Shown here: in pieces, positions 7,252-64,000 of the stretch
Position numbering within the stretch: the first letter of the stretch is position 1
How the letters are laid out: the number at the start of each line of letters is the position of its first letter
DNA from: Oceanobacillus timonensis
Lineage (GTDB): Bacteria > Bacillota > Bacilli > Bacillales > Amphibacillaceae
Direction of reading: 5' to 3'
Assembly: GCF_900166635.1 (NCBI RefSeq)
Contig: NZ_LT800497.1
Location: forward strand, 3,520,344 to 3,584,343
DNA length: 64,000 nucleotides
Made by a program: the position numbers and the translations under genes
The notes under the pieces: generated by a model
What the model was told of the DNA's origin: nothing
Databases searched by the model: none
What the model saw: the letters and a program-made list of their open reading frames with translations, nothing else

Positions 7252-8064
7252 TTATTTATATTCTAATCTCCCTAATGCCAATGCTGCAATTAATCCGCCT
7301 ATAAATAAAAGAACACATACAATGATACTGCCGATACCTGCAGGAATACCTGGAAATACGATGGTAACGGCACCGATAACAAGTCCGATAATAATGGCAT
7401 AGGTACTTGTGAAATAATTTCTTAAAAAGTAAGCAATTATCTTACTCATGGTAATAAATCCAAGTGCAATCCCAGCACCTGCCACAATGATAACAGAAAA
7501 CTGAAAATTACTGATTGCAGCCATTATTGTCGGGTATACACCGAGCAACATCATGATCATCGAGCCACTAATCCCCGGAACAATCATGACACCGCTGCCG
7601 ATAAATCCTGCTATAAACAATAAGATATAGGTATTTGTACTAATATCTTGTATAACCTGTCCTTCATTCGGATTTAAAATTCCTAATCCACCAACTATAA
7701 CGAACCCGATAATCAGCAGTATATACTGCTTTCCCTGAAATTTTGTTTTTCCTTCTGCTTTTTGGTATAAGTAAGGAATCACACCAATGACCAGTCCCAA
7801 AAAGAAAAATTGTGTCTGCATTGGAAAGTGCTTAAATAACCAATCAACCACTCTGGCAAATAAGAAAATGGCCGTGACCATTCCAATCCCTAAAGGTACC
7901 AGAAAGCTCAGATGCTTCTGCCAATCCTTACTGAAAAAACCGCTGATAGCTTCAATCAAACGTTCATAAATACCTAACAGGACAGCAATAGTCCCCCCGC
8001 TTATACCGGGGACAACTTCCACTGACCCCATTATTAAACCACGATATAAATTTCTCCACTCCAT
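7252..8064 (-). CDS. DUF368 membrane protein (PopT-type undecaprenyl phosphate translocase candidate)
   Basis: 270 residues, polytopic, with a repeated half-motif: VVPGISGGT near residue 17 and IVPGISGSM near 161. This pair of re-entrant-like motifs is the signature of DUF368. Members in Vibrio cholerae and Staphylococcus aureus (PopT) have been reported to recycle undecaprenyl phosphate across the membrane for cell-wall synthesis; assigning that role here is by family only. The ATG at 8064 follows GAAGGAG. It leads the two-gene unit with the thioredoxin-like gene. Confidence 0.85.
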   Translation of the reverse strand: MEWRNLYRGLIMGSVEVVPGISGGTIAVLLGIYERLIEAISGFFSKDWQKHLSFLVPLGIGMVTAIFLFARVVDWLFKHFPMQTQFFFLGLVIGVIPYLYQKAEGKTKFQGKQYILLIIGFVIVGGLGILNPNEGQVIQDISTNTYILLFIAGFIGSGVMIVPGISGSMIMMLLGVYPTIMAAISNFQFSVIIVAGAGIALGFITMSKIIAYFLRNYFTSTYAIIIGLVIGAVTIVFPGIPAGIGSIIVCVLLFIGGLIAALALGRLEYK

Positions 8065-8335
8065 GTATTCTTTTTCTCCTTCATATTCATCGCTACGGAA
8101 TCATTTTATCAAAAGTAATCCGAAAAAGACACTTTGTGAAAAAGATTTATTACTATTTAAAAGTTTCTTTTGAAAAAATGACGAAAACATGAATGGATAA
8201 GTACTTTTATCATGACGATATTACATAAATCCTTTATAATGACTGTATAAATTAAAATACACAGAGAAAAACTATAGAATAATCCTTGTTTATTTTCATA
8301 TGTATGATTGTGTCCATTTTTTAGGGGGAAGAAAG

Positions 8336-8527
8336 ATGAAACGGTATTTAACACTAATCCTGTTTGCTTTAAGCATTCTGATTATCTACATTGGCTCCAA
8401 ACTGCAACTTTATTGGAGCGGCGTTGCTGCATGGGGGCTTGCTCTAGTGTGTCTTATTTTTGCAGTATACTATTCGAAGTACATTCCAAACGAAAAAAAC
8501 TCCCGAAAGAAAAAGAAGGAAGTATAA
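8336..8527 (+). CDS. small two-helix membrane protein, unknown function
   Basis: 63 residues starting at an ATG 9 nt after AGGGGG; an upstream in-frame ATG at 8300 has no ribosome site. Two hydrophobic segments (about 4-20 and 26-45) are followed by a very basic tail (NSRKKKKEV), giving a likely tail facing the cytoplasm. A terminator overlaps its stop codon, which supports it as a real single-gene transcript. I do not recognise the family. Confidence 0.7.
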   Translation: MKRYLTLILFALSILIIYIGSKLQLYWSGVAAWGLALVCLIFAVYYSKYIPNEKNSRKKKKEV

Positions 8528-8566
8528 AATCTCCCGTTTTTCATTGCGCTGACGAGGAGATTTTTT
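8526..8566 (+). terminator. terminator of the 63-residue membrane protein gene
   Basis: AAAATCTCC and GGAGATTTTTT form the stem and T-run, overlapping the stop codon. The stretch 8567-8749 beyond it holds only a weak inverted repeat (TTTTCAGA/TCTGAAA, 8601-8631) and no gene that I can support. Confidence 0.75.
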
Positions 8567-8749
8567 ATATGATGCATTGCCCCGTTTTTCATATATGAAC
8601 GCTTTTCAGATGCAATGAAAATGCCTCTGAAAGCATCCGCCAGACTGATAACACGAAGTCCTGTCTCCAAAACTGCCATCCGCAGCACCTATACGTTACT
8701 GCAGGCTGGTTATCATTTGAAAAGCTAAATGAAGATCATGGCAGTTACC

Positions 8750-8820
8750 TGCCTGCAAAAATGATTGGTGCTACGCTTACTCGCCCCACCGAAAATATTG
8801 GCAACTTTTTGAACACACAT
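8750..8820. mobile_element. remnant of the MITE-like repeat seen at 26985-27324
   Basis: 8770-8797 matches the internal TACTCGCCCCACCG segment of the intact copy (27110-27123), and 8806-8818 (CTTTTTGAACACA) matches its terminal inverted repeat. The rest of the element is lost. The left limit is uncertain. Confidence 0.55.
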
Positions 8821-8826
8821 TATAAT
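8798..8826 (+). promoter_or_regulatory. sigma-A-type promoter for the YkgA-like gene
   Basis: TTGGCA (8798-8803), a 17-bp spacer and a perfect TATAAT (8821-8826), 48 bp before the ATG. The -35 and spacer lie within the MITE remnant's end. Confidence 0.7.
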
Positions 8827-12343: not shown

Positions 12344-15300
12344 GTGAAAAAGGCTTTTAAAATTACAAAACAAGACATGAAAAACATTATTCGTGTTCCT
12401 TCTGTTCTTATTTTGATTATTGGATTAGCAATCCTTCCTTCTTTTTATGCTTGGTTTAATATAAAAGCATCCTGGGATCCTTATTCAAACACAGAAGGAA
12501 TCCAGATTGGCGTCGTCAGTGATGATACCGGCACAGAAGTGGAAGGCGAATCCATTAACATGGGGGACGAACTGATAGACAATTTAAAGGAGAACGATTC
12601 ATTAGGATGGCAATTCGATGATTCGATTGAAGAAGCAGATGAGAAGGTTTATAAGGGAGAATACTTTGCAACCATCCACATCCCAGAGACTTTTTCGGAA
12701 GATGTAACCAGTATCCTTGATGATGAGCCTAAAAGTGCAAATGTACAATATAAAGTAAATGAAAAAACCAATGCTATTGCTCCTAAAATGACGGATACCG
12801 GAGCTACGCAAATCACAGAAACGATTAATGATACATTTGTACAGACAACAGCTCAAACATTACTGGAAGAATTTAATAATGCCGGGATTGAACTCGAACA
12901 AAATCTTCCTATCCTGGAGAAAATTAAAAGTGCTGTTTATAATCTTCATGACCATATAGATGATATCGACGAAGCCGGAGATATGATTGTTCAATTAGAC
13001 GAAGATCAGGATAATATCCAAAACTATGCAGATACATTGGACAGCTTACAGGATTATGAGTCAAATATCAGAGAAGGCGGAGATCAGATTCTGACAGTTC
13101 AATCTCACTTGGATGATATTAACCGGCTTGGAGATGCCGTCGTTGAATTAAATGGGTCGATGCCCGATATTGAAAATGCGCTCACCCGAATCAGTTCGAT
13201 TCAGCAATATTTCCCTGCTATTAATGAGGGGCTGGAAGATGCTTATAATGCAAGCATTACGGCCGGCGATACGTTAGCGGATGTGCAAGAACGGATTCCA
13301 GAGATTAATCAGCAAATTCGTGATTATCAGGATCAAGTTGATCGCGCGCAAGATACTGTAGATAAGGCCGAACAGACAACAGATGAAGTTGCAGAATTGA
13401 TTCATAACCGGGTCAACGAGGCGGAGGAAATAATCAATGGGCTTCCTTCTTTTGACTTAGAATCAGAAGAATCGACGACTCCTGATTTTGTAAATAACAT
13501 AAAAGACTCCGTGGATGAATCTAAACAGCCGTTGGGAGATATCTTAGAAGAACTTGGTGATTCTGGTAACCTGGAAACAAATGAGTCTGTAGAAAAATTA
13601 AGCAATACTGCTGACGAAACAAAAGAACAGGGAAATGAGCTTTCTTCTGAACTAGAAGATATGCTTACCAAAATAGAAGAAGATAATTATACAGAAGAAG
13701 ATATGAATGCTTTAAATGAAGCAATAGACAATTATCAGTCCTCTTTCGATGGCGTCAAAGAAGATTTAGCAAATGCAGAGTTTGTTCCAGACACGACCCA
13801 AGACGACGAGAACGAGGAAAATCCAGAGAATAAGGAAGATGATGCTGAAGAAGATACAGAACAGAACAATGAAGAAACCGAGCAATCTGATGAGGATGCA
13901 GAACAGGACAGTGAAGAAGCCGAGCAATCTGATGAAGATGCTGAACAGGATAGTGAAGAAGCCGAGCAATCTGATGAAGATGCTGGGCAGGACAGTGAAG
14001 AAGCCGAACAATCTGATGACGATGCTGAGCAGGACAGTGAAGAAGCCGAGCAATCTGATGAAGATGCTGAACAGGATAGTGAAGAAGCCGAGCAATCTGA
14101 TGATAGTGCAGATACACAGCAACGGGATGAGGAAATTGATCAGGTAATTGGCGACCTTCATGAAGATACGATGAACGCATTTGATGAAATTTCTACTGTG
14201 TTAGATCAAAATATAGATCTTGCAACTAGAAATATCCAGCAACTGCCGGAATTAATTGCCATGAAGGAAAATCCGGACAGAGCAGAATATGCAGAAGAGC
14301 AAATTCAAGCAGTCCAGGAGAGTATTGAAGGTCTGCAGTCTTCTATTACAAGTACGCAGAACTCGCTTGATTTATTAGAAGCTCCAGAGAATAAAGAGGA
14401 ATTGGATTCTATTCGAGACACACTTGAAGGCGACAGTTCTCAATTAAATAACGTGATCGACTATCTGGAAAATGGCGATTTTGACCTTGATCAATTAGAA
14501 GATGTGAAAGATGATGCAGTAAATAATCTGGAATCATTACAATCCTTTAACGAAGACACATTGGATCCGTTTGTGAATGATGCTTTCACTACTTTAGAAA
14601 ACAGGTTAAATGATGCAGATTCCAAATTAAATGCTGCATTGGATTATACCGATTTAGCATCTGATTATTTATCGGAAGCAGCAACTGTAGTTAATGATTC
14701 ACAGTATTATTTAAACCTTTTAAATGAGAATTTACCGTACTATGAAGAAGAGTTCAGCGATATCTCTGATACCGTCAATCAACACTTCCCTGAATTTAAA
14801 AATGGTGTAGATGCAGCAAGCTCTTTCTTCCAGAATGATATGCCGCATTTAGAAGATGAAGTAAATAATTTAGCTGGTTTTGTGAATAATGATATGGATG
14901 ACTTAATTGAACAATATAAACAATTAAATTCCCTTGTACAGGATAATTTACCCGAAGCTCAAGAGTCCATTGGTGAAATGGCAGACTTTATCCGTGATGA
15001 TTGGCCCGGATATAAAGAAGATATTCAAAATGCCTATGATCGGATAAAACAGATGGAAGACGATCAGATTATCGAAGAATTGATTGGCGCATTGCAAAAT
15101 GACCTGAGTGATGAGACAGAATATTTCTCTCGTCCAGTGCAGCTGGATGAAGAAAAACTCTTTGCAATTCCAAACTATGGTTCAGCCAATACACCATTTT
15201 ATACTGTGCTTGCACTTTGGGTTGGTGCATTATTGCTTTGTAACTTAATTACCACAGAACTAAAAGATAAAAATAGAGAGGAATTCAGCTTACGGGATAT

Positions 15301-50896: not shown

Positions 50897-51546
50897 TGCA
50901 GCCAGTCACTATCGCTTTAGCAAAAGGACGTCCTGCGAAGCAATCGATTGATTTATTAGAAGCAGCAGGCATTCATTTTGAAGGGTTCCATGAAAAGACC
51001 CGTAAACTTGTTTTTTTCAATAAAGATAAAACCTTACGATTAATCTTTTTAAAAGGGATGGACGTCCCAATCTATGTAGAAAAAGGCGCTGCCGATATCG
51101 GGATTGTCGGCAGAGATAATATTATCGAAACAGAGGCAGATATTTATGAAATCCTCGATTTAGGGATTGGAAAGTGTAAATTTTCTGTTGCCGGAAAAAA
51201 AGGCGTATCGCTTCCAGATAATCAGTCGTTAACGATTGGAACCAAATATCCCAATATCGCTAAAAATTTCTTTGAAAAGCGCAATCAGTCCATTGAAACA
51301 GTTCATCTCAACGGCTCTGTTGAGTTGGCACCGTTGATTGGGCTTGCCGATTACATCGTTGATATTGTCGAGACAGGAAATACCTTGCGTGAAAATGGAC
51401 TGGAAGTATTAGCAGACATTGAAACCATCAGTACAAAATTTATTGTTAATAAAGCAAGCTTTGTAACACGTTCTAAAGAAATTCAGGACGTACTTAAAAA
51501 ATTGGAAGAGGTTGTGGGTGAAGAAAATGCAAATTCTCCGTTATGA
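50896..51546 (+). CDS. hisG: ATP phosphoribosyltransferase, short form
   Basis: 216 residues, the short form lacking the C-terminal regulatory domain, which fits the presence of hisZ. It joins ATP and PRPP in the first committed step. ALAKGRP near the N-terminus, EKGAADIGIVGRDNI and IVDIVETGNTLRENGL (PRPP loop) are typical. Its 3' end overlaps the hisD start by 20 bp. Confidence 0.97.
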   Translation: MQPVTIALAKGRPAKQSIDLLEAAGIHFEGFHEKTRKLVFFNKDKTLRLIFLKGMDVPIYVEKGAADIGIVGRDNIIETEADIYEILDLGIGKCKFSVAGKKGVSLPDNQSLTIGTKYPNIAKNFFEKRNQSIETVHLNGSVELAPLIGLADYIVDIVETGNTLRENGLEVLADIETISTKFIVNKASFVTRSKEIQDVLKKLEEVVGEENANSPL

Positions 51547-52831
51547 AACGTATAAACAAAATATAGCGAACACCGAAAAAGAAACACAGTTGATGCAGAA
51601 AAATTTAGATGAACAGGTTTTAGAAATTATCCGCGCCGTACAGAGTCGCGGAGATGAAGCAGCACTTGCATATACCCAAAAGTTTGATAAGGCTGATTTG
51701 TCCTTCTTATCTGTTTCGGAAGAAGAATGGCGTACAGCTGATGACAAAATAAAAACGGAACAGCCAGCGCTTTTCAAAGCATTAACAGAAGCTGCAGAAA
51801 ACATTCGTCAGTATCAACAAAGAACCAAAGAGGAAGGTTTTCAATTCAGTCCACAGCCTGGCATTCGCCTTGGTCAGAAAGTAACGCCGCTGGATCGTGT
51901 CGGTGTTTATGTTCCAGGAGGAAAAGCAAGTTATCCCTCTACCGTATTAATGGATGTTATTCCAGCTGTTGTTGCTGGTGTCGAGCAGGTTGTTATTACC
52001 ACCCCTCCCCGTCCTGACGGAAGCATTGATCCAGTTGTTCTGGCCGCGGCGAAAATTGCCGGCGCAAACGATGTTTACAAAATCGGCGGTGCACAAGCTG
52101 TTGCAGCATTAGCTTATGGTACGGAATCCATTCCTAAAGTAGATAAAATTGTCGGCCCTGGCAATGCCTTTGTTGCCCGTGCGAAAAAATGGGTATTTGG
52201 CGATGTTGCCATTGATATGATTGCAGGTCCGAGTGAAATCTGTGCTTTGGCTGATCACACTGTTCCTGCTTCTTATGTTGCTGCTGACTTATTATCGCAG
52301 GCAGAACATGCCGAAGATGCCACATCCATTTGCGTAACGACAGATAGGAAATATGCAGAAGCAGTTCAAAACGAAGTAGACCGGCAAACTTCTTTATTAG
52401 AACGAGCAGATATTATTCGAGAATCCATCCAGGCAAATGGAAAAATCATTATCTGTGATGATGAAGAACAAGCAATAGAACTGATTAATTCCATTGCTCC
52501 TGAGCATCTGCAATTAATGGGCGAGCGCGCGGAAGAACAAGTTGAAAAAATCAAGCATGCCGGAGCAATTTTTATTGGGGCCTATTCCAGTGAGCCATTA
52601 GGGGATTATTTTGCAGGTCCGAACCATACCCTGCCGACAAATGGAACAGCGCGTTTTTCTTCTCCGCTCGGTGTGTATGATTTCATGAAAAAATCAAGCA
52701 CGATTTATTATTCCAAAGAACGGCTGCTGGACCATGCAGATTCCATTATCACGATTGCAGAGGCAGAAGGCCTTACTGGTCATGCCAATGCCATTCGAAT
52801 TCGAAAGGAGAACGACAATGCGTCAAGCTGA
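51527..52831 (+). CDS. hisD: histidinol dehydrogenase
   Basis: 434 residues from ATG 51527; GTG 51518 is a close alternative. It oxidises histidinol to histidine in two NAD steps with zinc. [35 protein letters not shown] and [11 protein letters not shown], and the C-terminal [16 protein letters not shown], are the family signatures. The stop overlaps the hisB start. Confidence 0.97.
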
Positions 52832-53402
52832 AAAAGAACGGCAAACAAAAGAAACGAAGATATCCCTTGCACTTAACCTGGACGGAGAAGGGAAGTCCGA
52901 ACTAAACACAGGTGTCGGCTTTTTAGACCATATGCTGACGCTCTTCACAAAACATGGCGGACTGGATTTGCAAGTAGCCTGTGATGGAGATTTAGAAGTG
53001 GATCAGCATCATACAGTAGAAGATATCGGTATTGTTCTTGGCCAGGCATTTCAAGAAGCGCTAGGAACAAAGGAAGGCATTAAACGCTATGCCACAGCAA
53101 CAACGCCAATGGATGAATCACTCTCTACGACTTCCATCGATATTAGCGGCCGCTCCTTTTTAGTCTACCGGGTAGATGGATTAAAAGATAAAGTCGGCAA
53201 TTTTGATACAGAACTAGTGAAAGAATTTCTGATTGGTTTTACCAGCCATGCCAAAGTGACGCTGCATGTAGAAGTACGCTATGGAACGAATACACATCAT
53301 ATGATTGAATCGATTTTCAAAGGATTAGGCCGCACCATCCGCGAAGCTGTATCCATCGATCCAACCATAAAAGGTATCCCTTCTACCAAAGGAAGCCTAT
53401 AA
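52818..53402 (+). CDS. hisB: imidazoleglycerol-phosphate dehydratase
   Basis: 194 residues from the ATG at 52818 behind AAAGGAG, overlapping hisD. This is the monofunctional dehydratase, with no phosphatase fusion, which explains the separate hisJ. Manganese-binding motifs [11 protein letters not shown] and [14 protein letters not shown] are both present, along with GFLDHML. Confidence 0.97.
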
Positions 53403-53424
53403 AATCTTAAAAGGAGCCTGAGAT

Positions 53425-54030
53425 ATGATTGCCATCATTGATTACGGTGCAGGGAATATTAAAAGCCTGCAATTTGCATTAGATAAATTAGGGAAAACCT
53501 CTAAGCTGACCATGGACCCGGAAGAAATTCATCAGGCAGATTCTATTATCCTTCCCGGCGTTGGTGCCTTCAAGGATGCAATGGAAGCACTCGAACGTTA
53601 TCAGTTAGACACCTTATTGAAAGAAGAAGCAGCAAACGGCAAACCGATTTTAGGAATTTGTCTCGGGATGCAGCTTTTCTATGAATTTAGTGAAGAGAAC
53701 GACGGATGTACCGGTCTTGGCCTGCTATCCGGTTCCGTGAAACGTATTTCAGATAACGTGAAAGTTCCACATATGGGCTGGAATACCCTTCAACCTAATC
53801 AGTCTCAAAGCTTATTACATCAGCTTGGCGATAACCCGTATGTGTATTTTGTTCATTCGTATGCAATTGATGAACTGGAAGAACATACATTGGTTGCCAG
53901 CGCAGATTATGGTGGACGCGTACCAGCGATTGTACAGGATAAAAATATTACAGGTATGCAATTTCACCCGGAAAAGAGCGGGGATACCGGTGTTGCATTA
54001 TTGAAAAATTATGAGGAGATGATTTCATGA
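53425..54030 (+). CDS. hisH: imidazole glycerol phosphate synthase, glutaminase subunit
   Basis: 201 residues, class I glutaminase: nucleophile Cys in GICLGMQL (near 79), and His/Glu in MQFHPEKSG (near 182). It feeds ammonia to HisF. AAGGAG precedes the ATG; the end overlaps hisA by 4 bp. Confidence 0.97.
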   Translation: MIAIIDYGAGNIKSLQFALDKLGKTSKLTMDPEEIHQADSIILPGVGAFKDAMEALERYQLDTLLKEEAANGKPILGICLGMQLFYEFSEENDGCTGLGLLSGSVKRISDNVKVPHMGWNTLQPNQSQSLLHQLGDNPYVYFVHSYAIDELEEHTLVASADYGGRVPAIVQDKNITGMQFHPEKSGDTGVALLKNYEEMIS

Positions 54031-54749
54031 TCATTTTTCCAGCAATAGATGTGAAAGATGGCAACTGTGTTCGCCTGAAGCAGGGAGATTATAATCAGCA
54101 GACAACTTATAATGACTCCCCTGTAGAAACAGCAATAAAATGGCAGGAGGCTGGCGGAACCTTCCTCCATATGGTCGATTTAGACGGAGCCAAAACAGGA
54201 GAAGCCAAAAACCAAGAGGTTATCCTTCAAGCCATTCAGGCGTTATCCATCCCTGTCGAAGTCGGCGGCGGTATTCGCTCCTTAGACACGATAAAAGAGT
54301 ATGTGGACGGCGGTGCTGCTCGGGTTATTCTTGGAACTTCGGCTATTACCGATTGGGCTATGCTCTCAGAAGCGATTCGGTTATATGGGGATAAAATCGC
54401 TGTTTCGCTCGATGCACGAAACGGTTATATCGCAACAGATGGCTGGACAAAGAATAGCGATAAGAAAGCTGCTGACCTTGCGAAAGAATTAGAAGCAGCC
54501 GGCTTAACAACGATTGTATATACCGATATTTTAAAGGATGGCATGCTGCGCGGTCCGAATCTGGAGGAACTGCAAGCCATGCAGGAAGCAACCAATATGA
54601 ATATTATTGCTTCCGGCGGAGTTTCCCGGAAAGAAGATGTGACGAATCTGCAGGAACTGGACCTTTATGGTGCCATTATTGGAAAAGCGCTGTATGATGG
54701 AAGCCTCCAGCTGGAAGATGTCTTAAAGGAGGATAATCATGCTCGCTAA
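54027..54749 (+). CDS. hisA: phosphoribosylformimino-5-aminoimidazole carboxamide ribotide isomerase
   Basis: 240-residue TIM barrel with the catalytic Asps in FPAIDVKDG (near 8) and AVSLDARNG (near 130), and phosphate-binding GGGIRSL and IASGGVS loops. It carries out the Amadori rearrangement feeding HisF. It overlaps hisH and, by 11 bp, hisF. Confidence 0.97.
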
Positions 54750-55500
54750 ACGAATTATTCCTTGCCTTGATGTAGACAAAGGACGGGTTGTCAAAGGAAA
54801 GAAATTTCAAGATATTAAAGATGTCGCCAATCCGGTAGAATTAGCTGCCCGTTATAATAAGGAAGGAGCAGATGAGCTCGTTTTTTATGATATTACAGCT
54901 TCCAGTGAAGAGCGGAATATCTTCTTAGATGTGGTTGAAAACGTGGCACGCGAAATTGCTATCCCTTTTATGGTCGGCGGCGGTATTCGGACCATACAAG
55001 ATATTCACAGTGTGCTCCATGCTGGTGCGGATAAGGTCTCGATAAATAGTGCAGCTGTACAGCGTCCAGAGTTAATTACGGAGTCCTCTGATAAGTTTGG
55101 CAGCCAATGCACTGTGCTTTCGATTGATGCTAAAAAAACATCAGATGGTGCGTTTCACGTATTTATTAACGGGGGAAGAAAAGATACGGAAATGGACGCC
55201 GTGGAATGGGCAAAACAAGGAGAAGCGCTTGGCGCTGGTGAACTTGTTGTCAATGCAATGGACGCGGACGGTGAAAAAAACGGCTATCAAATCGAATTGA
55301 CCAAAAAAATTGCAGATGCCGTTAATATTCCTGTCATCGCCAGTGGCGGAGCAGGCAAACCGGAGCATTTTGCAAAAGCTTTTGCAGAAGGAGTGGATGC
55401 AGCGCTTGCCGCATCAGTCTTTCATTACGAGGAGATTCCTATTCAGGAATTAAAAAATTATTTATCCTCACAAGGAATACCAATGAGGAGGAGAGCATAA
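54739..55500 (+). CDS. hisF: imidazole glycerol phosphate synthase, cyclase subunit
   Basis: 253-residue TIM barrel, with [12 protein letters not shown] (catalytic Asp near 11), SIDAKKT (Asp near 130) and the GGGIRTI and ASGGAG phosphate loops. It closes the imidazole ring and releases AICAR. It overlaps hisA and touches hisI by one base. Confidence 0.97.
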
Positions 55501-56132
55501 TGGAGATTTCAATCAAATACGATGAAAATGGACTGGTTCCGGCCATCGTCCAAGATTACGCAACAGGAAAGGTGTTAACCTTAGCTTATATGAACGAGGT
55601 TGCTTTCGAAAAAACATTAGAAACCGGCGAAACATGGTTCTACTCCCGAAGCCGCAACGAGCTCTGGAATAAAGGAGAAACATCCGGAAATAAACAGCTG
55701 GTTAAAAAAATTTCGGTCGATTGTGATCAGGATGCTTTAGTTGTTCAAGTACAGCCGCTAGGACCTGCCTGTCATAAAGGAACGACGACTTGTTTTGAAA
55801 CAACCTTACTAGAAACGGAAAAGCCGTTATTCGCTATGGTCACTGAGCTGACGGACAAAATTAAAGACCGTAAAGAAAATCCGCAGGAAGGTGCTTATAC
55901 AACCTATCTGTTTCATAAAGGTCTCGATAAAATCCTTAAGAAAATCGGTGAAGAATCAACAGAGGTTGTCATCGGGGCAAAAAATAATGACAAAGAAGAG
56001 TTGACGAATGAATTAGCTGATTTATTATATCACTCGCTTGTATTGATGGAAGAGCAAGGTGTCCGTTCGAAAGATATCAAAAAAATATTAAACGAGCGTC
56101 ATATTGAAAAAGAGGGACAGCATCGTGAGTAA
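55500..56132 (+). CDS. hisI: bifunctional phosphoribosyl-AMP cyclohydrolase / phosphoribosyl-ATP pyrophosphatase
   Basis: 210 residues, a HisI-HisE fusion. HisI part (about 1-105): [23 protein letters not shown], zinc ligands DCDQDA and CHKGTTTCF. HisE part (about 112-208): helical pyrophosphatase with [16 protein letters not shown] and [13 protein letters not shown]. The fusion covers steps two and three of the pathway. It overlaps hisC by 8 bp. Confidence 0.97.
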
Positions 56133-57186
56133 CTTCTGGAATCCATTAATTAAACAGCTGGAACCTTATATTCCTGGAGAGCAATTAGATGACCCTGCAA
56201 TCATTAAATTAAATACAAATGAAAATCCCTTTCCTCCTTCTCCAAAAGTTCTGACTGCGATTGAAGAAGAGGCAAAAACAAAATTACAACTTTACCCTTC
56301 TCCAACGGTAGATGAGCTTAGGGAGGAAATAGGCAACTATTACGGTTTAAAAAAAGAACAAGTCTTTATCGGCAATGGATCAGATGAAGTACTTGCACTT
56401 GGATTTATGACATTTTTTGAACCTGGAAAAGCCATTAAATATCCAGATATCACCTACAGCTTCTATCCTGTGTATGCCAAGCTATATCAGCTGGATGTGG
56501 ATGAAATAGCTTTAGAGGAGGATTTTACTATCTCTCCCGAATCTTTTTTTCATTCTGAAGGCGGAGTGATTTTTCCAAATCCAAATGCGCCGACCAGCCT
56601 GTATCTGGAACTGGAAGCTATTGAAGCAATTTTAAAAAACAATTCGGACCAGGTTGTCATTATTGATGAAGCGTATGTTGACTTTGCTGAAAAATCAGCA
56701 GTTTCCTTAATAGACAGTTACCCGAATTTACTGGTTGTGCAGACGCTGTCTAAATCCCGGTCGCTTGCCGGTCTGCGTGTAGGCATGGCAATGGGGCATC
56801 CGGACTTGATTGAAGGATTAAACCGGGTAAAAGATTCGTTTAATTCCTATACCATTGACCGGTTAGCCATCGCCGGAGCCATAGAAGCATTTCGAGATAC
56901 GGCTTATTTTGAGAAAACACGGAAGGAAATTATAGCAACAAGAGAATATTTTCGGCGGGAATTAGAGAAAAGACGCTTTCACGTTCCTCCTTCTCAAGCG
57001 AATTTTGTGCTCGCTTCTCCAGCAGATATAGAAGCGGAGAAACTATTCACCGAGCTCAAACAAGCAGGCTTCTTAATCCGTTATTTCAATAAACCAAAAC
57101 TGGAAAACTATTTGCGCATCTCTATTGGAACAAAAGAACAGATGACGAAGCTGTTACATGCTATCGATAGCATCACAGAAAAATAA
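56125..57186 (+). CDS. hisC: histidinol-phosphate aminotransferase
   Basis: 353 residues from a GTG behind AGAGGGACAG inside the end of hisI. PLP enzyme of fold [22 protein letters not shown], and the Schiff-base lysine in [15 protein letters not shown] (near 218). It transaminates imidazole-acetol phosphate. In B. subtilis hisC sits in an aromatic operon instead; here it is the last gene of the his run, ahead of a terminator. Confidence 0.96.
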
Positions 57187-57237
57187 GGCATTCATTTTTG
57201 GTAAAATTCTTATTTAGCTAAATAAATGATATATATA

Positions 57238-57271
57238 GAAAGCCATTAGAGAATATTACCTAATGGCTTTC
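57238..57271 (+). terminator. his operon terminator
   Basis: GAAAGCCATTAG and CTAATGGCTTTC form a 12-bp stem around a 10-nt loop; the following T-run is weak. Confidence 0.75.
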
Positions 57272-57360
57272 TCTGTAACGAAATAAAAGGTTTTAATTTT
57301 TTCCAGAAGTGAATATATGAAATAAGAGATTATTTTAAATGGACTCGATGCGAATGCCGT

Positions 57361-57406
57361 ATTGTTTTTGAAACAATCTACCTTTCTATGATTGTTTAAA
57401 AACAAT
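57361..57406 (+). promoter_or_regulatory. two palindromic operators upstream of the ureohydrolase gene
   Basis: ATTGTTT-TTG-AAACAAT (57361-57377) and ATTGTTT-AA-AAACAAT (57391-57406) are each perfect 7-bp inverted repeats, 13 bp apart. They lie 38-83 bp before the start codon, so they should bind a dimeric repressor or activator. No regulator gene adjoins them. A clear -35/-10 pair is not visible. Confidence 0.65.
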
Positions 57407-57443
57407 AGACAAATCTACTTCTATTCAACAAAGGAGAATGGTA

Positions 57444-58388
57444 ATGAGTACAAATATTTATGGAAATACGCCTCCTTTATTAGGCGCTAAAAATCTGACA
57501 AGTACAAAGGAAAAGGATTATGATACCGATGTATTGATTTACGGAGTTCCTTGGGAAGGTGCCTGTACATGGGGAGATTATACCGGCTGCGAACTTGGTC
57601 CAAAGCAAATTCGCTTATCTTCCGCCAGATATAGCACATATCTTCCGGAACTCGACCATATTAATGTAGAAGATCATTTACGTTTAGGAGATGTCGGTGA
57701 TGTCGGCATTATCCCTCATAATGTCCCGGAAACCATGGACCGCATTGAAGCTTTTGCAGAGGATCTCTGGAAAACCGGTAAGTTCCTGGTCGGAATGGGC
57801 GGAGATCACGGTATAACGTATCCGGTTGTCAAAGGATTGACCAATACCGGGAAAAAAGTCGGCATTATCCATCTCGATTCCCATTATGATAATATGCCGC
57901 ACCATGAAGGCGATAAATTTGCAAGGAGCACCCCTTTTATGCGTTTATATGAAACAGAGGGTGTACGTAATGAAAGCTTAATTCATACAGGAATCAAAGG
58001 TCCCCGTAATAAGCCGGAAACGGGTAAATACGCAAAAGACGCCGGCGCTGTAACACTGACCATTAACGATATTCGTGAACAAAGCGATTTGAAGAAATAC
58101 GCGAATGAAATCTATGAAATGGCTTCTAAAGATGTCGATGTTGTCTATTTGACGATTTGCAGTGATGTACTTGATTTTGCTTTCAATCCGGGCGGACCAG
58201 TGGATGGAAATGGTTTGACTTCTTACGAGCTGCTTACAATGATTTATGAATTTGCTAAGCGTGGACTTTGCGGGATGGATTTTGTGGAAGTTTATCCGCA
58301 GCAAGATTTCAATCAGAATTCAGCACACTTTGTATCTACGGCCGTGTTGTATGTACTGGCAGGTCATATTCATGGAGGGCACGCTTAG
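57444..58388 (+). CDS. ureohydrolase-superfamily enzyme (agmatinase/formiminoglutamase/guanidine hydrolase type)
   Basis: 314 residues from ATG 57444, 7 nt after AAGGAG. Metal-site residues of the arginase fold are His122 (GMGGDHG), Asp145/His147/Asp149 (HLDSHYD) and Asp241; the preceding Asp expected in SxDxD is Cys239 (TICSDVLDFAFNPG). The helper Glu is in DFVEVYP. Such enzymes hydrolyse guanidino or formimino groups to urea, guanidine or formamide products. It is followed by an Nramp-like gene across a hairpin. I cannot choose the substrate; HutG is possible but no hut gene is present. Confidence 0.85.
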   Translation: MSTNIYGNTPPLLGAKNLTSTKEKDYDTDVLIYGVPWEGACTWGDYTGCELGPKQIRLSSARYSTYLPELDHINVEDHLRLGDVGDVGIIPHNVPETMDRIEAFAEDLWKTGKFLVGMGGDHGITYPVVKGLTNTGKKVGIIHLDSHYDNMPHHEGDKFARSTPFMRLYETEGVRNESLIHTGIKGPRNKPETGKYAKDAGAVTLTINDIREQSDLKKYANEIYEMASKDVDVVYLTICSDVLDFAFNPGGPVDGNGLTSYELLTMIYEFAKRGLCGMDFVEVYPQQDFNQNSAHFVSTAVLYVLAGHIHGGHA

Positions 58389-58394
58389 AAAAAT

Positions 58395-58468
58395 CAGTAC
58401 TTACGAAGCTTTTCGCTAAAACGCCTGGTAAGTAGTAAGGGGGGAGTTTTCCCCCTTTATGACTTACC
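58395..58468 (+). promoter_or_regulatory. intercistronic hairpins between the ureohydrolase and Nramp-like genes
   Basis: GGTAAGT..GACTTACC with an inner AAGGGGG..CCCCCTT makes a strong hairpin (58427-58469). Its 5' arm can also pair with AGTACTTAC at about 58395, giving a mutually exclusive fold. It may set relative expression or processing; it ends 7 nt before the AAGGAGG of the next gene. Confidence 0.5.
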
Positions 58469-58488
58469 AAACAAAGGAGGAGTTTTAC

Positions 58489-59709
58489 TTGGCGCAATCA
58501 AAAGTTGTGGAGAAGCTTAAAGTCATTGGCCCCGGCGCGATTATTACCGCTTCTTTTATCGGCCCGGGTACGGTAACTACTGCAACACGTGCAGGTGCAG
58601 GATTCGGTTTTGCATTATTATGGGCTGTTATCTTTTCTATCCTGGCCACGATTATCCTGCAGGAAATGGTAGCCAGAATTGGTATCGTAACAAAGCAAGG
58701 GCTGGGAGAAAATATCAGGGAATTATTCCAAAACCAAGTTCTGAAATTTGCATCTGTGTGGATTGTACTGATTGCCGTATGTGTAGGATGTGCCGCATAC
58801 ATAAGCGGGGATTTATTAGGAACCTCTCTGGGTGTTTCGTATTTAACCGGGGTGCCTGAAAATTATGTAGCGCCAATTATCGGAATTATCATTTTACTCT
58901 TGAACTTACTTGGCGGATATAAGTTTATCGAAAAAGTAATGATTGTTTTAATTATCATCATGAGTATTACATTCATCACAACCATGTTTGTCTCTGCTTC
59001 AGATGTTCTCCGTGTTCTTGAAGGGGCTTTCCTTCCCTCTATCCCAGAAGGATCAATTCTGATGATTATTGCTTTAATCGGTACCACCGTTGTTCCATAT
59101 AATTTCTTTATTCATGCATCCACCGTAAGCGAAAAATGGAGTCATGTGAATGATTTAAAAGCAGTAAGGACAGACACGATTCTTTCCATTACCGTAGGCG
59201 GGCTTATTACCGCCGCGATTTTAATTACAGCTGGTGCATTAATTCAAGGGACAGAAGTGACCAGTGTCGTTCAGCTTGCTTCTCCGCTGGAACCTTTAAT
59301 GGGAGACCTGGCTCCAATCTTTGTCAGTATCGGCCTGTTTGCTGCTGGTTTCTCATCTGCTATCGCTTCTCCAATGGGAGCTGCTGTAACCGTAAGCAGT
59401 TTTATGAGATGGGAAGGCGGATTCACTAATAAAAAATATAAAGCCGTTTTCAGTGCTGTTATTATTTTAGGCATTATCACTTCGGCTATTGAGTTTGAAC
59501 CGTTAGAAGTGTTACTTGTCGCCCAGGCGTTAAATGGCATTATTTTACCTGTTATTGCGATCTTCATTATGGTTGTCGTGAATAAGAAAAACGCAATGGG
59601 GAAATACGTAAACCGGTTATGGTTAAATATTCTGGGCTGGCTCGTCACTGCCGTAGTTATCTTTCTTGGTACTTACAGTTTGGTAGATGCGATTAATACA
59701 TTTTTATAA
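58489..59709 (+). CDS. Nramp-family (YcsG-like) transporter lacking the metal-binding motifs
   Basis: 406 residues from a TTG 9 nt after AAGGAGG; the ATG at 58459 lies before this site. Eleven or so helices of the Nramp fold. The helix-1 motif is FIGPGT instead of DPGN (Gly25, Thr28) and the helix-6 motif is VVPYN instead of MPHN (Val202, Tyr204), so the residues that hold Mn/Fe are replaced. B. subtilis YcsG, an Nramp relative in the 5-oxoprolinase operon, may be a precedent for a non-metal substrate. Its partner gene suggests uptake of a guanidino or related compound; that is inference. Confidence 0.85.
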   Translation: MAQSKVVEKLKVIGPGAIITASFIGPGTVTTATRAGAGFGFALLWAVIFSILATIILQEMVARIGIVTKQGLGENIRELFQNQVLKFASVWIVLIAVCVGCAAYISGDLLGTSLGVSYLTGVPENYVAPIIGIIILLLNLLGGYKFIEKVMIVLIIIMSITFITTMFVSASDVLRVLEGAFLPSIPEGSILMIIALIGTTVVPYNFFIHASTVSEKWSHVNDLKAVRTDTILSITVGGLITAAILITAGALIQGTEVTSVVQLASPLEPLMGDLAPIFVSIGLFAAGFSSAIASPMGAAVTVSSFMRWEGGFTNKKYKAVFSAVIILGIITSAIEFEPLEVLLVAQALNGIILPVIAIFIMVVVNKKNAMGKYVNRLWLNILGWLVTAVVIFLGTYSLVDAINTFL

Positions 59710-59761
59710 GAACAAAAAAGGAAGTGCGTCCTGCTGGGAGGAGCACTTCCTTTTTGTTCTT
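59708..59761. terminator. bidirectional terminator after the Nramp-like gene
   Basis: AAGAACAAAAAAGGAAGTGC pairs with GCACTTCCTTTTTGTTCTT, overlapping the stop codon. Confidence 0.85.
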
Positions 59762-59778
59762 CAGATGTTCAAAAATAT

Positions 59779-60543
59779 TTACAGTTGTTCTTCTACATCT
59801 GCAGATTCAGTCAATTCATCTACTTTATCTGCATATGCTTCCTGTTGTTTATTCTGTGCTACCATTTCTTCAATCTGGCCTCTGATTTCATCCAGATCTT
59901 GCATGTCCTGGTCGCCCATCTGTGATTGTAATTGTTCGTACATTTCTTCTACTTCTTCGTCTGTTACATCTACATCAAATGCTTCGTCCATATATTTTGT
60001 AGTTGCTAAATTATATTTGAGTTGCTGTTCAAATTGATCTTCGCTTAAATTCAATTCATCAAGAGAAGCCTGAAATTGGTCTTCCCCATTCGCTTTCATT
60101 GTATCCATTTGTTCTTGTACTTCTTCATCCGTTACTTCGACACCTTCGTCATTTGCTTCCTGCATAATCAGTTCTTGTTCTACCAAGAAGTTAATGGTTT
60201 CATCTTGCAGTGCTTCTTGATCTGATACATCCTGACCAGATTGATTCATCATTGTTTTCACTAATGAATATGCGGTATTGTAGTCTGTCCCTTGCAATTC
60301 TTCTCCATTCACAACGACAACAGGCGTATCTTCTTCTACAAATTCGTCATCGGAAAATTCGACCGGCTCCGGTTGTTGCGGTTGCTGTTGGTCACCTTCT
60401 CCTTCGCCTTCACCTTCTTGCTGTTGTCCAGCTTCTTCTTGCCCTTGGTCACCTTCTCCTTGTTCGTTTTCGCTATCGTCACTTCCGCATGCTGCTAACA
60501 GCATGGTTATAATCATTAATATGCTCAATGACAGTTTCTTCAT
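59779..60543 (-). CDS. SurA N-terminal-domain lipoprotein (PrsA-like, no PPIase domain)
   Basis: 254 residues from ATG 60543 behind GAGGGATG. A lipoprotein signal with LLAAC (near 19) precedes a Gln/Glu/Gly-rich linker (about 22-65) and a SurA N-type chaperone domain (about 75-225): VVVNGEELQGTDYN, NFLVEQELIMQEAND and FEQQLKYNLATTKYMDE. A parvulin domain as in PrsA is absent. It is expected to bind unfolded exported proteins on the outer face of the membrane. The gap 60544-60772 shows nothing clear. Confidence 0.85.
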   Translation of the reverse strand: MKKLSLSILMIITMLLAACGSDDSENEQGEGDQGQEEAGQQQEGEGEGEGDQQQPQQPEPVEFSDDEFVEEDTPVVVVNGEELQGTDYNTAYSLVKTMMNQSGQDVSDQEALQDETINFLVEQELIMQEANDEGVEVTDEEVQEQMDTMKANGEDQFQASLDELNLSEDQFEQQLKYNLATTKYMDEAFDVDVTDEEVEEMYEQLQSQMGDQDMQDLDEIRGQIEEMVAQNKQQEAYADKVDELTESADVEEQL

Positions 60544-60772
60544 GAAAACATCCCTCACTTTAAAAGTTTGTCATGTTTCATTCAATCATACATGCTTCTA
60601 TGATTTCAAGTTTTCGAGTTATAAATTTTTCACGAGAAATTATCTATATGACTTCGGTTCCCGATTAAGCGCGGGAATACAATGATTTAGAAGCCTTTAT
60701 CTTTTTAATCATGATGAATAGGTTTCCACATGGAAGATATTTGAAAATCTCGTATAGAGGGGTTTTCATTTT

Positions 60773-62179
60773 TTACCAATAAAAAAGTGCAGCAAGAAAA
60801 CCAATCAGTATCGAAACGAGCGTATACACCGAACCAATAACGACTTGTTGCCCCTTTGTAATAATCCCCGTACTAAAAGCTAGGAAGGTAGTCGTTGAAT
60901 GTATTGGCAAGATAAGCATACTCCCTACGCTGAATATAACTAATAAAGATAATGCCCGGATATCCATGCCTGCAGATACAGCATAGGACATCACAATCGG
61001 GAAAATCACAATCAGGGCAGCGGAAGGAACAATAAAAAAGAAACGCATGATTGCTATTAATAAAATGATAAATACAGTTTCTAAGATAACCCCATCTGTT
61101 TCAGGCAGAAAACTGATTAGAAAGTCCGCGATAACATCTGCCGTATGATTTTCTGATAAAACCATACCTAACGAAAAAGACGTTCCAAGCATCAAAAAGT
61201 TTTCCCAATCAGCTTTACGCACAGATGCGTTTGATATCAGCCCAATCGAGGGGATCGAATAAAATGCAATTAAAATTAGCGGTGGTATCAATACAGGAAA
61301 TATTTCGCTATCCGTAAATATCCACAGACAAATCATTGCTAAAAAGCTACTGAATACTACCCAGAATTTCCAGGAGGTCTCCGTTTTTGAAGCAGTATTT
61401 ACAGAGGCCGTACCTTCCTCTGCAATAAACTGTTCCCCGGGAGAAGTATATGTTAAGTATTTCCACGTAAAGATGCTCATGATAATCATAATTGCCTCAA
61501 GCGGAACTGCCATCGCTAAAAACCATTCAGCCCATGATAAACTGCCAATTTCGTAATCATTCCACAGTTGATAGGCAAGTACCGGAAATCCTCCACCTGT
61601 AAATACAATCATGGTTGCATGTTGATTCATTATCCCAATCACAGCCATGGTGTATCGATGGAAGATGCTATGCTTCGAAAATCCAAATAGTCCGTTTAAA
61701 CTGCTTAAAATAGGAGAAAGCACTTTAAAACGGGCCACAGCAGACGGCAGTAATATGGGCAGAAGCAAAACAATCACCGGCAATATAACAATCATTCGAA
61801 ATACGCCGCCTTTACTTAATTTCATAAACAACTTTGCAATAAATTGATCGACTTTCACATCCACCAGCACTCCGCTGATAATCGTTAAAACGATGACAAA
61901 ATAGACAGCTGGCGTCATAAAACCTGCAAGAGCCTGCTCCATCGTACCGAGAATAGGCAATAAAACCATTAAAGCCAATATCAGCATGCTGCCTGCACCG
62001 ACCGGGATTGGCTGTAATACCCATAGATAGACCGAGAAGCCAAGCAAGAGCAACGTAAAACGCTGCTCTTCAGTGAGTTCTTCCGGAAAAATCCATGTAT
62101 TTGTTACCGCAAGCAAAATAAAACTTGCGCAAATCATACCATGCACAATCATGGATTTCTTAATTATTTTTCCCTGCAT
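60773..62179 (-). CDS. DASS/SLC13-family sodium:carboxylate or anion transporter
   Basis: 468 residues with about 11-12 helices. Motifs of the ArsB/SLC13 type include LQPIPVGAGSM (near 56), LPSAVARFKVLSPIL (near 143), the first substrate-loop region NQHATMIVFTGGG (near 184) and its second-half counterpart VGSMLILPIHSTTTFLAFS (near 422). It imports dicarboxylates, sulfate or similar anions with sodium. Its start overlaps the end of TctA by 20 bp, so it belongs to the TctB-TctA transcript. Coupled translation with a TTT permease is unusual. Confidence 0.82.
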   Translation of the reverse strand: MQGKIIKKSMIVHGMICASFILLAVTNTWIFPEELTEEQRFTLLLLGFSVYLWVLQPIPVGAGSMLILALMVLLPILGTMEQALAGFMTPAVYFVIVLTIISGVLVDVKVDQFIAKLFMKLSKGGVFRMIVILPVIVLLLPILLPSAVARFKVLSPILSSLNGLFGFSKHSIFHRYTMAVIGIMNQHATMIVFTGGGFPVLAYQLWNDYEIGSLSWAEWFLAMAVPLEAIMIIMSIFTWKYLTYTSPGEQFIAEEGTASVNTASKTETSWKFWVVFSSFLAMICLWIFTDSEIFPVLIPPLILIAFYSIPSIGLISNASVRKADWENFLMLGTSFSLGMVLSENHTADVIADFLISFLPETDGVILETVFIILLIAIMRFFFIVPSAALIVIFPIVMSYAVSAGMDIRALSLLVIFSVGSMLILPIHSTTTFLAFSTGIITKGQQVVIGSVYTLVSILIGFLAALFYW

Positions 62180-63665
62180 TTTTATTTCCTTTTCTTCGTT
62201 TGGAAATCAACGGGACGAACAAAGATAATGCAGCAAGTGCTAAAATACCGGCAGCAATTGGATCTTGCCAAAAAATAGCTAAACTCCCATTGGATATCGT
62301 CATGGATTGACGGAATGATTGCTCGAGCATTCCTCCAAGAATGAATGCCAATATAAAAGGCGGAGCAGGAAAAGAAAATAACCGCATGAGAAATCCGACA
62401 ACGCCGAACAATAATAACATGTATAAGTCAAATGTATTGAAACTGATAGCATAGACGCCAATCATACTAAACATAATAACCAGGGAAATTAACAGCGGTC
62501 TCGGAACCATTAATATCTTTGCTATGTAAGGGATTAATGGCAAATTCAAAATTAGCAAAAAGATATTCCCGATATACATGCTGACAATAACTCCCCAAAA
62601 AATATCCGGCTGGTCTGTCATTAATAATGGTCCGGGCTGTACCCCCAAGACTAAAAATGCGCCTAATAATACTGCAGTTGTCCCGGAACCGGGAATCCCT
62701 AAACTTAATAACGGTACAAATGCGCCGCTAGTTGCAGCGTTGTTCGATGTTTCGGGAGCAGCCAGTCCTTTGACAGCACCTTTCCCAAATTCTTCCGGAT
62801 GTTTTGATATTCTTTTTTCCGTAATATAGGAAATAAAAGATGCAATCGTTGCTCCAGCTCCAGGAAGAACCCCTAAGATAAATCCAATTAGGGAATGCCT
62901 GGACATAGGTCCACTCATATCCTTCCAATCTTGTTTTGTTAATTTTAAACTGCCAATTTTATGTGCATTTTGTGTTGATGTATCTTTTCTGTTTAATATC
63001 AACGTACAAACTTCAGCTAAGGCAAATAACCCAAGGGCAATAACTAAGAAATCAAGACCGTCCAGTAAGTTTGTGTTTCCAAATGTGAAACGCTGCATAC
63101 CTGATTGTGCATCAATTCCTACTGTAACAACCATAAAACCTGCCACGGCTGATATTAATGCTTTTACCGTGGAACCCTCTGACAAACTCGATATTGCAGT
63201 TAACCCAAGTAACATTAAGGCGAAATAAGCTGCCGGGGAAAATGAGATAGCAACACTTGCCAACATAGGCGCCAGAAGCATAAGCAACACTACACTAACT
63301 GTTCCGCCAACAAATGAGGAAATCGCCGCTATCGCCAAAGCTTTTCCAGCTTCTCCACGCTGCGCCATTGGATACCCATCAAAGGAAGTTGCCACCGTTC
63401 CGGAAATTCCTGGAGCGTTTAACAAAATAGAAGATGTAGATCCTCCGAAAATAGCACCATAATAAACGCCGGCCATCATAATTAATGCAACGGTAGGCTC
63501 CATTCCAAACGTAATAGGTATCATAACCGCTATTGCACTAATTGGACCTAATCCAGGCAGCATCCCGATAAATGTTCCTATAAATACACCAATCATCACA
63601 AAAAATATACTTTGCAGACTAAATGCCGTCTGTAATCCTGTTACGATTCCTTCCATAGCTCCCAT
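62160..63665 (-). CDS. TctA-family large permease (second TTT system)
   Basis: 501 residues, 12 or so helices, with GMLPGLGPISAIAVMIP (near 34), GVLPGAGATIASFISY (near 265) and the GIPGSGTTAVLLG segment (near 324). It is clearly diverged from the first TctA at 651, so it is a separate system rather than a recent copy. GGGGGAGG precedes the ATG. TctB lies 18 bp upstream and the DASS gene overlaps its end; any TctC gene lies outside the window. Confidence 0.93.
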   Translation of the reverse strand: MGAMEGIVTGLQTAFSLQSIFFVMIGVFIGTFIGMLPGLGPISAIAVMIPITFGMEPTVALIMMAGVYYGAIFGGSTSSILLNAPGISGTVATSFDGYPMAQRGEAGKALAIAAISSFVGGTVSVVLLMLLAPMLASVAISFSPAAYFALMLLGLTAISSLSEGSTVKALISAVAGFMVVTVGIDAQSGMQRFTFGNTNLLDGLDFLVIALGLFALAEVCTLILNRKDTSTQNAHKIGSLKLTKQDWKDMSGPMSRHSLIGFILGVLPGAGATIASFISYITEKRISKHPEEFGKGAVKGLAAPETSNNAATSGAFVPLLSLGIPGSGTTAVLLGAFLVLGVQPGPLLMTDQPDIFWGVIVSMYIGNIFLLILNLPLIPYIAKILMVPRPLLISLVIMFSMIGVYAISFNTFDLYMLLLFGVVGFLMRLFSFPAPPFILAFILGGMLEQSFRQSMTISNGSLAIFWQDPIAAGILALAALSLFVPLISKRRKGNKNAGKNN

Positions 63666-63682
63666 TTAAATTTCCTCCCCCT

Positions 63683-64000
63683 TTAAAAAGGTAATACGCC
63701 GGATGGTAAAGATATCTGCAATAATGACGTAAATACAAAATAAATAAAACTTGAAAAAGCAATCGATACAATGCCATTTACGATATGACTTCTGTATCCT
63801 AAAAATATAGAACAGCAGAAAATAAAAAGAGCAGACACAATGATAAATCCAAGTATTTCCAGTAAGAATATATATATAAATATAAGTACGCCTACCCCAA
63901 GAAGCATTCCCACCTCTTTTTTTGGAATGTTTCTTTTTTGACGCTGTTCTTCTGTCTCTTTATCTTTTGAAAAAAACAATAGAATGGATAAAATCACTAA
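63683..64000 (-). CDS. TctB-family small permease (5' end outside window)
   Basis: The frame runs to the last base, so the N-terminus is missing and the GTG at 63997 should not be taken as the start. The visible 105 residues have a basic/acidic loop (KDKETEEQRQKRNIPKK) followed by helices at about 28-60 and 78-98, matching the second half of TctB. It precedes TctA by 17 bp in the same operon. Confidence 0.78.
   Translation of the reverse strand, partial: LVILSILLFFSKDKETEEQRQKRNIPKKEVGMLLGVGVLIFIYIFLLEILGFIIVSALFIFCCSIFLGYRSHIVNGIVSIAFSSFIYFVFTSLLQISLPSGVLPF

Follow-up and report, generated by a model that had tools for sequence, protein, structure and literature searches.

An arginase-fold hydrolase gene and the Nramp-fold carrier gene behind it probably form a two-gene uptake-and-hydrolysis unit in Oceanobacillus timonensis, in which the carrier would import a small organic nitrogen compound and the enzyme would split that compound. 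Judged from the sequences, the carrier most likely imports the organic substrate of the enzyme, because the pairing is conserved, the carrier is swapped for PutP-like or ABC importers at other loci, and a GPGT/VPYN-bearing relative of the carrier heads a pxp gene cluster. The pair lies in a window of 64,000 nucleotides, the whole stretch of DNA that was analysed, and its features are summarized in Table 1.

Table 1. Features of the hydrolase-carrier pair, with positions in the window
Feature	Position	Strand	Basis or remark
Arginase-fold hydrolase gene ("Cys-ureohydrolase")	57444..58388	+	314 aa; ATG at 57444, 7 nt after Shine-Dalgarno-like AAAGGAG
Arg161 codon (guanidinase H222 position)	57924..57926	+	Alignments; invariant in 16 rows
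Cys239 codon (position of guanidinase metal-binding Asp D299)	58158..58160	+	Alignments and locus survey
Asp241 codon (retained Asp of the hydrolase)	58164..58166	+	Alignments
Shine-Dalgarno-like AAAGGAGGA upstream of the carrier's TTG start codon	58473..58481	+	Read directly from the letters
Nramp-fold carrier gene, product without canonical metal site	58489..59709	+	406 aa; TTG start; translation free of internal stops
GPGT helix-1 motif (G25-T28) at the DPGN position	58561..58572	+	Alignment to solved Nramps
VPY helix-6 motif (V202-Y204) at the MPH position	59092..59100	+	Alignment to solved Nramps
Terminator-like hairpin 3' of the carrier gene	59736..59751	+	Matched by consensus alone; the stretch has 4 sites of this kind against 2.4 expected

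The two genes and their altered motifs

The hydrolase gene is followed by the carrier gene on the same strand after a gap of 100 bp, and each gene is preceded by a Shine-Dalgarno-like sequence. An alternative in-frame ATG of the hydrolase gene at 57438 is less well placed relative to this sequence. Upstream of the pair lies a histidine operon (ORFs 51512-57186, gene names read from the translations), and the hydrolase is 92-94% identical to those of Oceanobacillus loci that share this histidine-gene neighbourhood. On the minus strand, the protein encoded at 59779-60558 carries a SurA_N domain; it begins like a lipoprotein (by eye), and a long Glu/Gln/Gly-rich stretch comes after. Also on the minus strand, at 60773-63997, the end of a TctA gene is overlapped by a gene of the sodium:sulfate-symporter family, and a small ORF for a membrane protein (TctB-like by eye) lies beyond, an arrangement that reads as tripartite tricarboxylate genes next to a different anion carrier. 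The sole Rfam match in the window stretch, Cis8_sRNA (E=0.022), was below the gathering score and was taken as chance.

The carrier was assigned to the Pfam family Nramp (PF01566) with E=2.4e-88 and 297 bits, the gathering score being 29.8. When it was aligned to solved Nramps, G25-P-G-T28 fell over DPGN and V202-P-Y204 over MPH, the third alignment having sayMDPGNf and igaTVMPHviy at these places. Hence all four metal-site positions (D, N, M, and H) are replaced in the two motifs, as the sequence-only reading had claimed. Among 62 distinct Nramp-family rows collected, GPGT was present in 55, and all 41 rows adjoining a hydrolase gene carried both GPGT and VPYN; in the 14 further rows with GPGT, VPYN occurred as well in seven. 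As the changes recur in this way, they are not a sequencing slip. The carrier scored above the cut-off of NCBIfam NF037982, "Nramp family divalent metal transporter" (96 vs 50), a name that its motifs contradict, and below the cut-offs of the MntH (188.7 vs 430) and nramp (101.6 vs 272.5) subfamilies. Neither DPGN in helix 1 nor MPH in helix 6, by which MntH-type proteins are recognised, was found in it.

The window genome holds three PF01566 matches, the carrier included, and DPGN occurs in none of them. The third Nramp (L003, C3 near 1046204) stands between a putative hydro-lyase gene and pxpA. The other one (L002, C3 near 4039850), together with L164 and L165, is a non-canonical Nramp with GPGA or GPGS in helix 1, beside or near dihydrodipicolinate-synthase-family genes, in three genomes altogether and possibly as another organic-substrate pairing. 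As for relatives bearing GPGT, L160 adjoins an ABC importer set and L157 a sugar-kinase-like gene (by eye).

The upstream partner belongs to Pfam Arginase (PF00491; E=6e-60, 203.5 bits against a cut-off of 22), and it is the only match to this family in the window genome at E<=0.001. A predicted model (pLDDT 86.8, pTM 0.90) had guanidinase 9fek as its nearest solved fold with a TM score of 0.90, and the guanidinases 9fek and 7esr were the nearest solved structures by sequence profile and fold together. The metal ligands of guanidinase are given as H182, D207, H209, D211, D299, and D301 (PMC11410670). In the 16 aligned rows of the hydrolase family, H122, D145, H147, D149, and D241 are retained without exception and Cys239 stands at the D299 position; thus, in the His/Asp ligand set (H, D.H.D, D.D), Cys replaces the first of the two Asp residues in the final motif. 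Moreover, the pocket His (guanidinase H222) aligns with Arg161. We take D299 to correspond to the bridging Asp of arginase and H222 to its proton-shuttle His141. At the positions T105 and W313, where Thr and Trp mark guanidinases (PMC11410670), the guanidinase-specific Trp aligns with Pro252 of the hydrolase.

The cysteine is a property of the whole family, as it was found in 109 of 110 loci examined, the remaining locus (L047) being frameshifted at this place. It was read in all 102 loci that could be read by pattern, and seven of the other eight have CSD. Sixteen of the 102 readable loci have GGEH instead of GGDH. A second, more distant arginase-fold match in genome G369 (L178, E=1e-51) carries FDID, as is usual, and was kept outside the family, and a plasmid search with the hydrolase returned 13 records, all with at most 33% identity, which were dropped by identity; the annotated ones were agmatinase or agmatinase-family proteins. 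The hydrolase scored below the NCBIfam cut-offs for agmatinase (TIGR01230, 139 vs 174.3), formimidoylglutamase HutG (TIGR01227, 122.6 vs 229.15), and arginase. Accordingly, the earlier view of the partner as a ureohydrolase stood as far as the arginase fold is concerned, but the protein is not an ordinary member, given its altered metal ligand, its altered pocket His, and its scores below these subfamily cut-offs. The residue pattern suggests a changed metal centre, and from the same pattern we infer a carboxylate-binding pocket.

Conservation of the pair and exchange of the carrier

The first 45 hydrolase loci, which belong to named species or isolates, were found by short patterns taken from the window's own enzyme, and this sampling was non-random. 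The hydrolase was found in 4 of 398 genomes of the phylum, 42 of 299 of the order, and 25 of 398 of the class (the sets overlap), and searches around three distant matches gave it in 1/1, 1/8, and 6/15 genomes. Removing 11 loci whose last 300 residues duplicated those of others from the 102 readable ones left 91 for the counts. The eight loci missed by the pattern were L047, L103, L112, L119, L216, L220, L221, and L222; L216 has an Nramp gene, L221 a Liv set, and L222 a divergent PutP-like gene, and no transporter was recognised in the five others.

An Nramp gene was located within 2 kb downstream of the hydrolase gene on the same strand in 36 of the 91 distinct loci, so the pairing extends beyond this genome; a pairing confined to it had been named as a finding that would refute the sequence-only reading. 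The species with an Nramp partner belong to Oceanobacillus, Salinicoccus, Lacicoccus, Jeotgalicoccus, and Aliicoccus and include Staphylococcus gallinarum, and genomes of other families have it as well. Order and strand are constant, and the two genes lie 46-177 bp apart unless a regulator, a glutaminase, or a second Nramp intervenes; the neighbourhoods around the pair otherwise differ between genomes. The Nramp gene is tandemly doubled in Salinicoccus kekensis and S. halitifaciens, and Aliicoccus persicus has a second hydrolase copy (L021) without Nramp. From this pattern, the pairing behaves as a conserved functional unit.

The pair also appears to have moved between genera. The window hydrolase is 83-90% and the window carrier 73-80% identical to the Salinicoccus counterparts, and the hydrolase is only 63-65% identical to the enzymes of O. 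rekensis, O. damuensis, and O. halotolerans, which have a PutP-like gene instead. In a maximum-likelihood tree of 34 rows, the window carrier was placed inside a Salinicoccus-Oceanobacillus group with a support of 100/98. Because the window hydrolase is closer to Salinicoccus than to these three Oceanobacillus species, and because of the carrier's position in the tree, joint transfer of hydrolase and carrier is the simplest reading.

At the other counted loci, the place of the carrier is taken by a PutP-like symporter (12 of 91), a Liv-type ABC system (8), or a family-3 binding-protein ABC system of the polar-amino-acid type (1), and no transporter was recognised beside the hydrolase in 34. 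No metal importer was recognised among these substitutes. The exchange can be followed in two loci from different families: L101 has the row hydrolase-glutaminase (PF04960)-YheO-PAS/HTH_22 regulator-Nramp, and L102 has the same three genes followed by a PutP-like sodium:solute symporter. The PutP-like protein of L038 passed the proline-symporter equivalog TIGR02121 (649.6 vs 515.5), and the other PutP-like genes were so called by similarity to it. In the case of L083, L085, L221, and the L084/L179-L183 group, the hydrolase gene is located inside or right behind Liv-type ABC genes; the row of L221 is LivK-LivH-LivM-LivG-hydrolase-LivF-ATC_hydrolase-glutaminase, the Liv names being given by similarity and by eye. 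As unrelated importers swap at one place, uptake of an organic compound is indicated.

Co-occurrence was determined among the 299 genomes of the order. The carrier was present at E<1e-150, a line drawn after the results had been seen, in nine genomes, and the hydrolase was present in all nine vs 42 of 299 overall; the two genes were adjacent or in one gene row in four and unlinked in five. With looser lines, the hydrolase was found in 9 of 14 genomes (E<=1e-100) and in 15 of 26 (1e-40). None of the five genomes added at 1e-100 has the hydrolase, and in two of them (L155 and L156) the Nramp gene directly precedes genes of the pxpB-pxpA-pxpC type. The L155 protein is 48.5% identical to the window carrier and has GPGT and VPYN. 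NCBIfam models, applied to L155 only, named pxpB and pxpA, and the third gene was below the PxpC equivalog cut-off and above that of a broader PxpC/urea-amidolyase-type model; for L156, the link is by position. The window carrier gene itself is not linked to pxpABC, and the pxpA-linked Nramp of the same genome, L003, is 22.5% identical to the window carrier. The tree sets the pxp-linked rows beside the window clade, but not securely (group support 85/78, with an open fork above).

Candidate substrate and competing explanations

Genes for nitrogen release were observed near the hydrolase in a part of the 110 loci. Glutaminase was found in four (L101, L102, L220, and L221). Six loci, one in S. 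gallinarum and the others in five genomes that share a genus, have glutamate dehydrogenase 231-356 bp upstream of the hydrolase gene, a count that leaves out a match in L096 (32%, 6 kb away). A YheO/HTH_22 regulator was present in seven loci, ATC_hydrolase (PF14196) in four (L083, L100, L101 on the opposite strand, and L221), allantoate/N-carbamoyl amidohydrolase in two (L083, and L101 on the opposite strand), and an ornithine-cyclodeaminase-family gene in six L084-type loci. Together, these genes suggest a set of steps in which amino-acid-like molecules give up the nitrogen of their amidine, amide, and carbamoyl groups.

Genomes with and without the hydrolase were compared, the 38 hydrolase-free genomes consisting of nine from the same genus or family plus 29 more taken in the order of their handles, a set not matched by phylogeny. 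ATC_hydrolase was found at E<=1e-15, a line drawn after the results had been seen, in 15 of 42 genomes with the hydrolase vs 0 of 38 without it (Fisher p=1.7e-5, relatedness ignored), and at E<=0.001 in 16 of 42 vs 2 of 38. Two ATC_hydrolase matches, one strong and one weak, lie in the window genome, both unlinked to the pair (L229). A carbamoylase-like gene stood beside ATC_hydrolase in 3 of 13 further genomes viewed (L230, L234, and L237; by eye). In two genomes, L232 (near 7492-8159) and L235 (near 8166-8824), a pair of small ORFs (101 and 118-121 aa) that look alike by eye recurs next to the ATC_hydrolase gene. Urease at E<1e-50 was present in 13 of 42 genomes with the hydrolase vs 6 of 38 without it (p=0.12), which is no clear enrichment, and it was not found in the window genome; a urea-yielding reaction therefore has no co-occurrence support.

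In the proposed unit, the Nramp-fold protein would act as a secondary importer, with an inward direction presumed, of a small zwitterionic or anionic amino-acid-like compound, and the cytoplasmic arginase-fold enzyme would split a C-N bond of it. In arginase-fold enzymes, a metal-activated water attacks an amidine-type carbon and an amine is released; the hydrolase may do the same, and the nitrogen would then enter the glutamine/glutamate pool. The best guess at the substrate is an amino acid shaped like proline or 5-oxoproline and carrying an amidine, isothiourea, or guanidine group, for example, by analogy, a cyclic amidine that might open to glutamine or a glutamine analogue. ADPC, the cyclic amidine of glutamine, may serve as an example; it is described as a synthetic solute, with the equilibrium on the glutamine side and hydrolysis favoured (PMC5924519). 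As a suggestion, a five-membered-ring amidine such as that in ADPC could yield glutamine, on which glutaminase and glutamate dehydrogenase would follow. In its fullest version, this proposal would make the hydrolase the founder of a new class of ureohydrolases, one whose metal centre contains a Cys and which turns a cyclic amidine amino acid, shaped like proline or 5-oxoproline, into glutamine or an analogue, with Nramp, PutP-like, and two kinds of ABC systems as interchangeable doors; we hold it tentatively, as a possibility with the balance against it.

Other substrates were considered, ectoine among them. In the case of 5-oxoproline itself, a role was judged unlikely, since its hydrolysis by PxpABC is reported to be ATP-dependent (PMC13274462) and another Nramp gene lies beside pxpA in the window genome. 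ATC (2-aminothiazoline-4-carboxylate) was prompted by the ATC_hydrolase and carbamoylase neighbours, but it would leave a second hydrolase without a clear role.

It is unlikely that the Nramp-fold protein instead feeds a metal (Mn, Ni, Fe, or Zn) to the arginase-fold enzyme. Such enzymes do bind two metals, reported as Ni and Mn for guanidinase (PMC11410670), and Mg-transporting NRMTs are described as likewise departing from the canonical site (PMC4072509, PMC8806188). Moreover, YcsG/MntG, an Nramp-family protein outside the canonical clades (grouping in PMC12873925) encoded in the pxp operon of B. subtilis, is reported to import Mn2+ and to raise cellular Mn, in conflict with a 5-oxoproline role (PMC10448178); thus, the pxp link alone does not exclude metal. 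However, none of the four metal-site positions of the window carrier is kept, its substitutes are PutP-like and ABC amino-acid-type importers among which no metal importer was recognised, and its 48%-identical relative sits with pxp genes.

There is a small chance that the carrier exports or exchanges the product of the enzyme rather than importing its substrate, given that the direction of transport is unreadable from sequence and that many LeuT-fold carriers are exchangers. Against this, the carriers that stand in its place are PutP-like symporters and binding-protein ABC systems, and both kinds are uptake systems. The claim of the sequence-only reading that the carrier moves the substrate or the product of the ureohydrolase gained ground to this extent: the conserved pair that moves together, the exchange with PutP-like or ABC systems, and the pxp-tied relative all fit a carrier for an organic substrate of the enzyme.

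A hydrolase that is catalytically dead or regulatory and merely binds the compound is improbable. Two catalytic-site replacements, of the metal ligand and the pocket His, would agree with it, but the 16 rows show no variation at the remaining five metal-ligand positions, and the invariant columns, 65 in total, hold down to 39% identity. The formimidoylglutamase of B. subtilis, an accepted enzyme, also departs from the usual ligands (GGDN in 3m1r).

Very unlikely is a guanidinase with a guanidinium importer, although guanidinases are the nearest solved structures and L100 has a guanidine-I riboswitch 4.9 kb downstream of its hydrolase gene. The main ground for rejection is that W313 and H222 align with Pro252 and Arg161. 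No guanidine riboswitch was found in the stretch 51000-64000 of the window or in 25 of 26 loci scanned, L100 being the exception. There, the riboswitch (13291-13394, plus strand) is followed by group II intron matches with reverse-transcriptase-like ORFs and then by an APC-type permease ORF (ORFs by eye), a layout as if an intron had split the riboswitch from its gene.

That the two genes are neighbours by chance or through shared transfer, with no joint function, is barely credible: they are unlinked in five of the nine order genomes with a close carrier, but both are kept in all nine, and across several families they share order, strand, and gaps of 46-177 bp where no gene intervenes.

Comparison with known systems

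A description of an Nramp-ureohydrolase pair was not found in the full-text literature searched (open papers). The two-gene unit, a kind that the sequence-only reading had not known, may be new as a pairing, but an Nramp-family carrier of an organic compound is already known: in Corynebacterium glutamicum, the NRAMP-family protein PxpT is reported to be required for growth on 5-oxoproline (PMC13274462). Import of an organic compound by an Nramp therefore has a precedent in PxpT/YcsG and is not new as such. In both cases, an Nramp-family protein is tied to genes hydrolysing a small organic nitrogen compound, and the relative L155 has GPGT/VPYN; the partner of PxpT/YcsG is PxpABC, whereas that of the window carrier is an arginase-fold hydrolase, and YcsG/PxpT are set beside the window carrier by description.

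With canonical Nramp/MntH proteins, the window carrier has the fold family (PF01566) in common; unlike them, it has neither DPGN nor MPH, and it falls below the MntH and nramp subfamily cut-offs. Nramp-fold proteins can receive the label of divalent metal transporter even when they lack the metal motifs, and NF037982 would assign it here. The Nramp-related "G-motif" groups of a January 2026 preprint (PMC12873925) are described as lacking the conserved metal-site motifs, as the window carrier does, and all Nramp-related groups except those of EleNRMT and MntG are called entirely uncharacterised there; its passages on the G-motif groups carry no mention of ureohydrolases, whereas the window carrier is paired with one. 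Shin et al. noted that the Nramp outgroup may link non-metal and metal carriers (PMC4072509). Through the present locus, one uncharacterised Nramp-related clade gains an enzyme partner that is conserved, transporters that take the carrier's place, and a few candidate substrates. If the cyclic-amidine reading of the Cys class were true, a new nitrogen-scavenging route would be added, together with an organic substrate for an uncharacterised Nramp-related group.

With the hydrolase, a well-studied enzyme superfamily gains a case in which a metal-site Asp is replaced by a conserved Cys. Guanidinase of the GdmH type (9fek, 7esr) is nearest to it by fold and profile and differs by Asp299 to Cys, His222 to Arg, and Trp313 to Pro in the window protein. 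HutG (3m1r), an amidine hydrolase, resembles it in the arginase fold and in having an unusual ligand set, but the residues changed in the two proteins differ.
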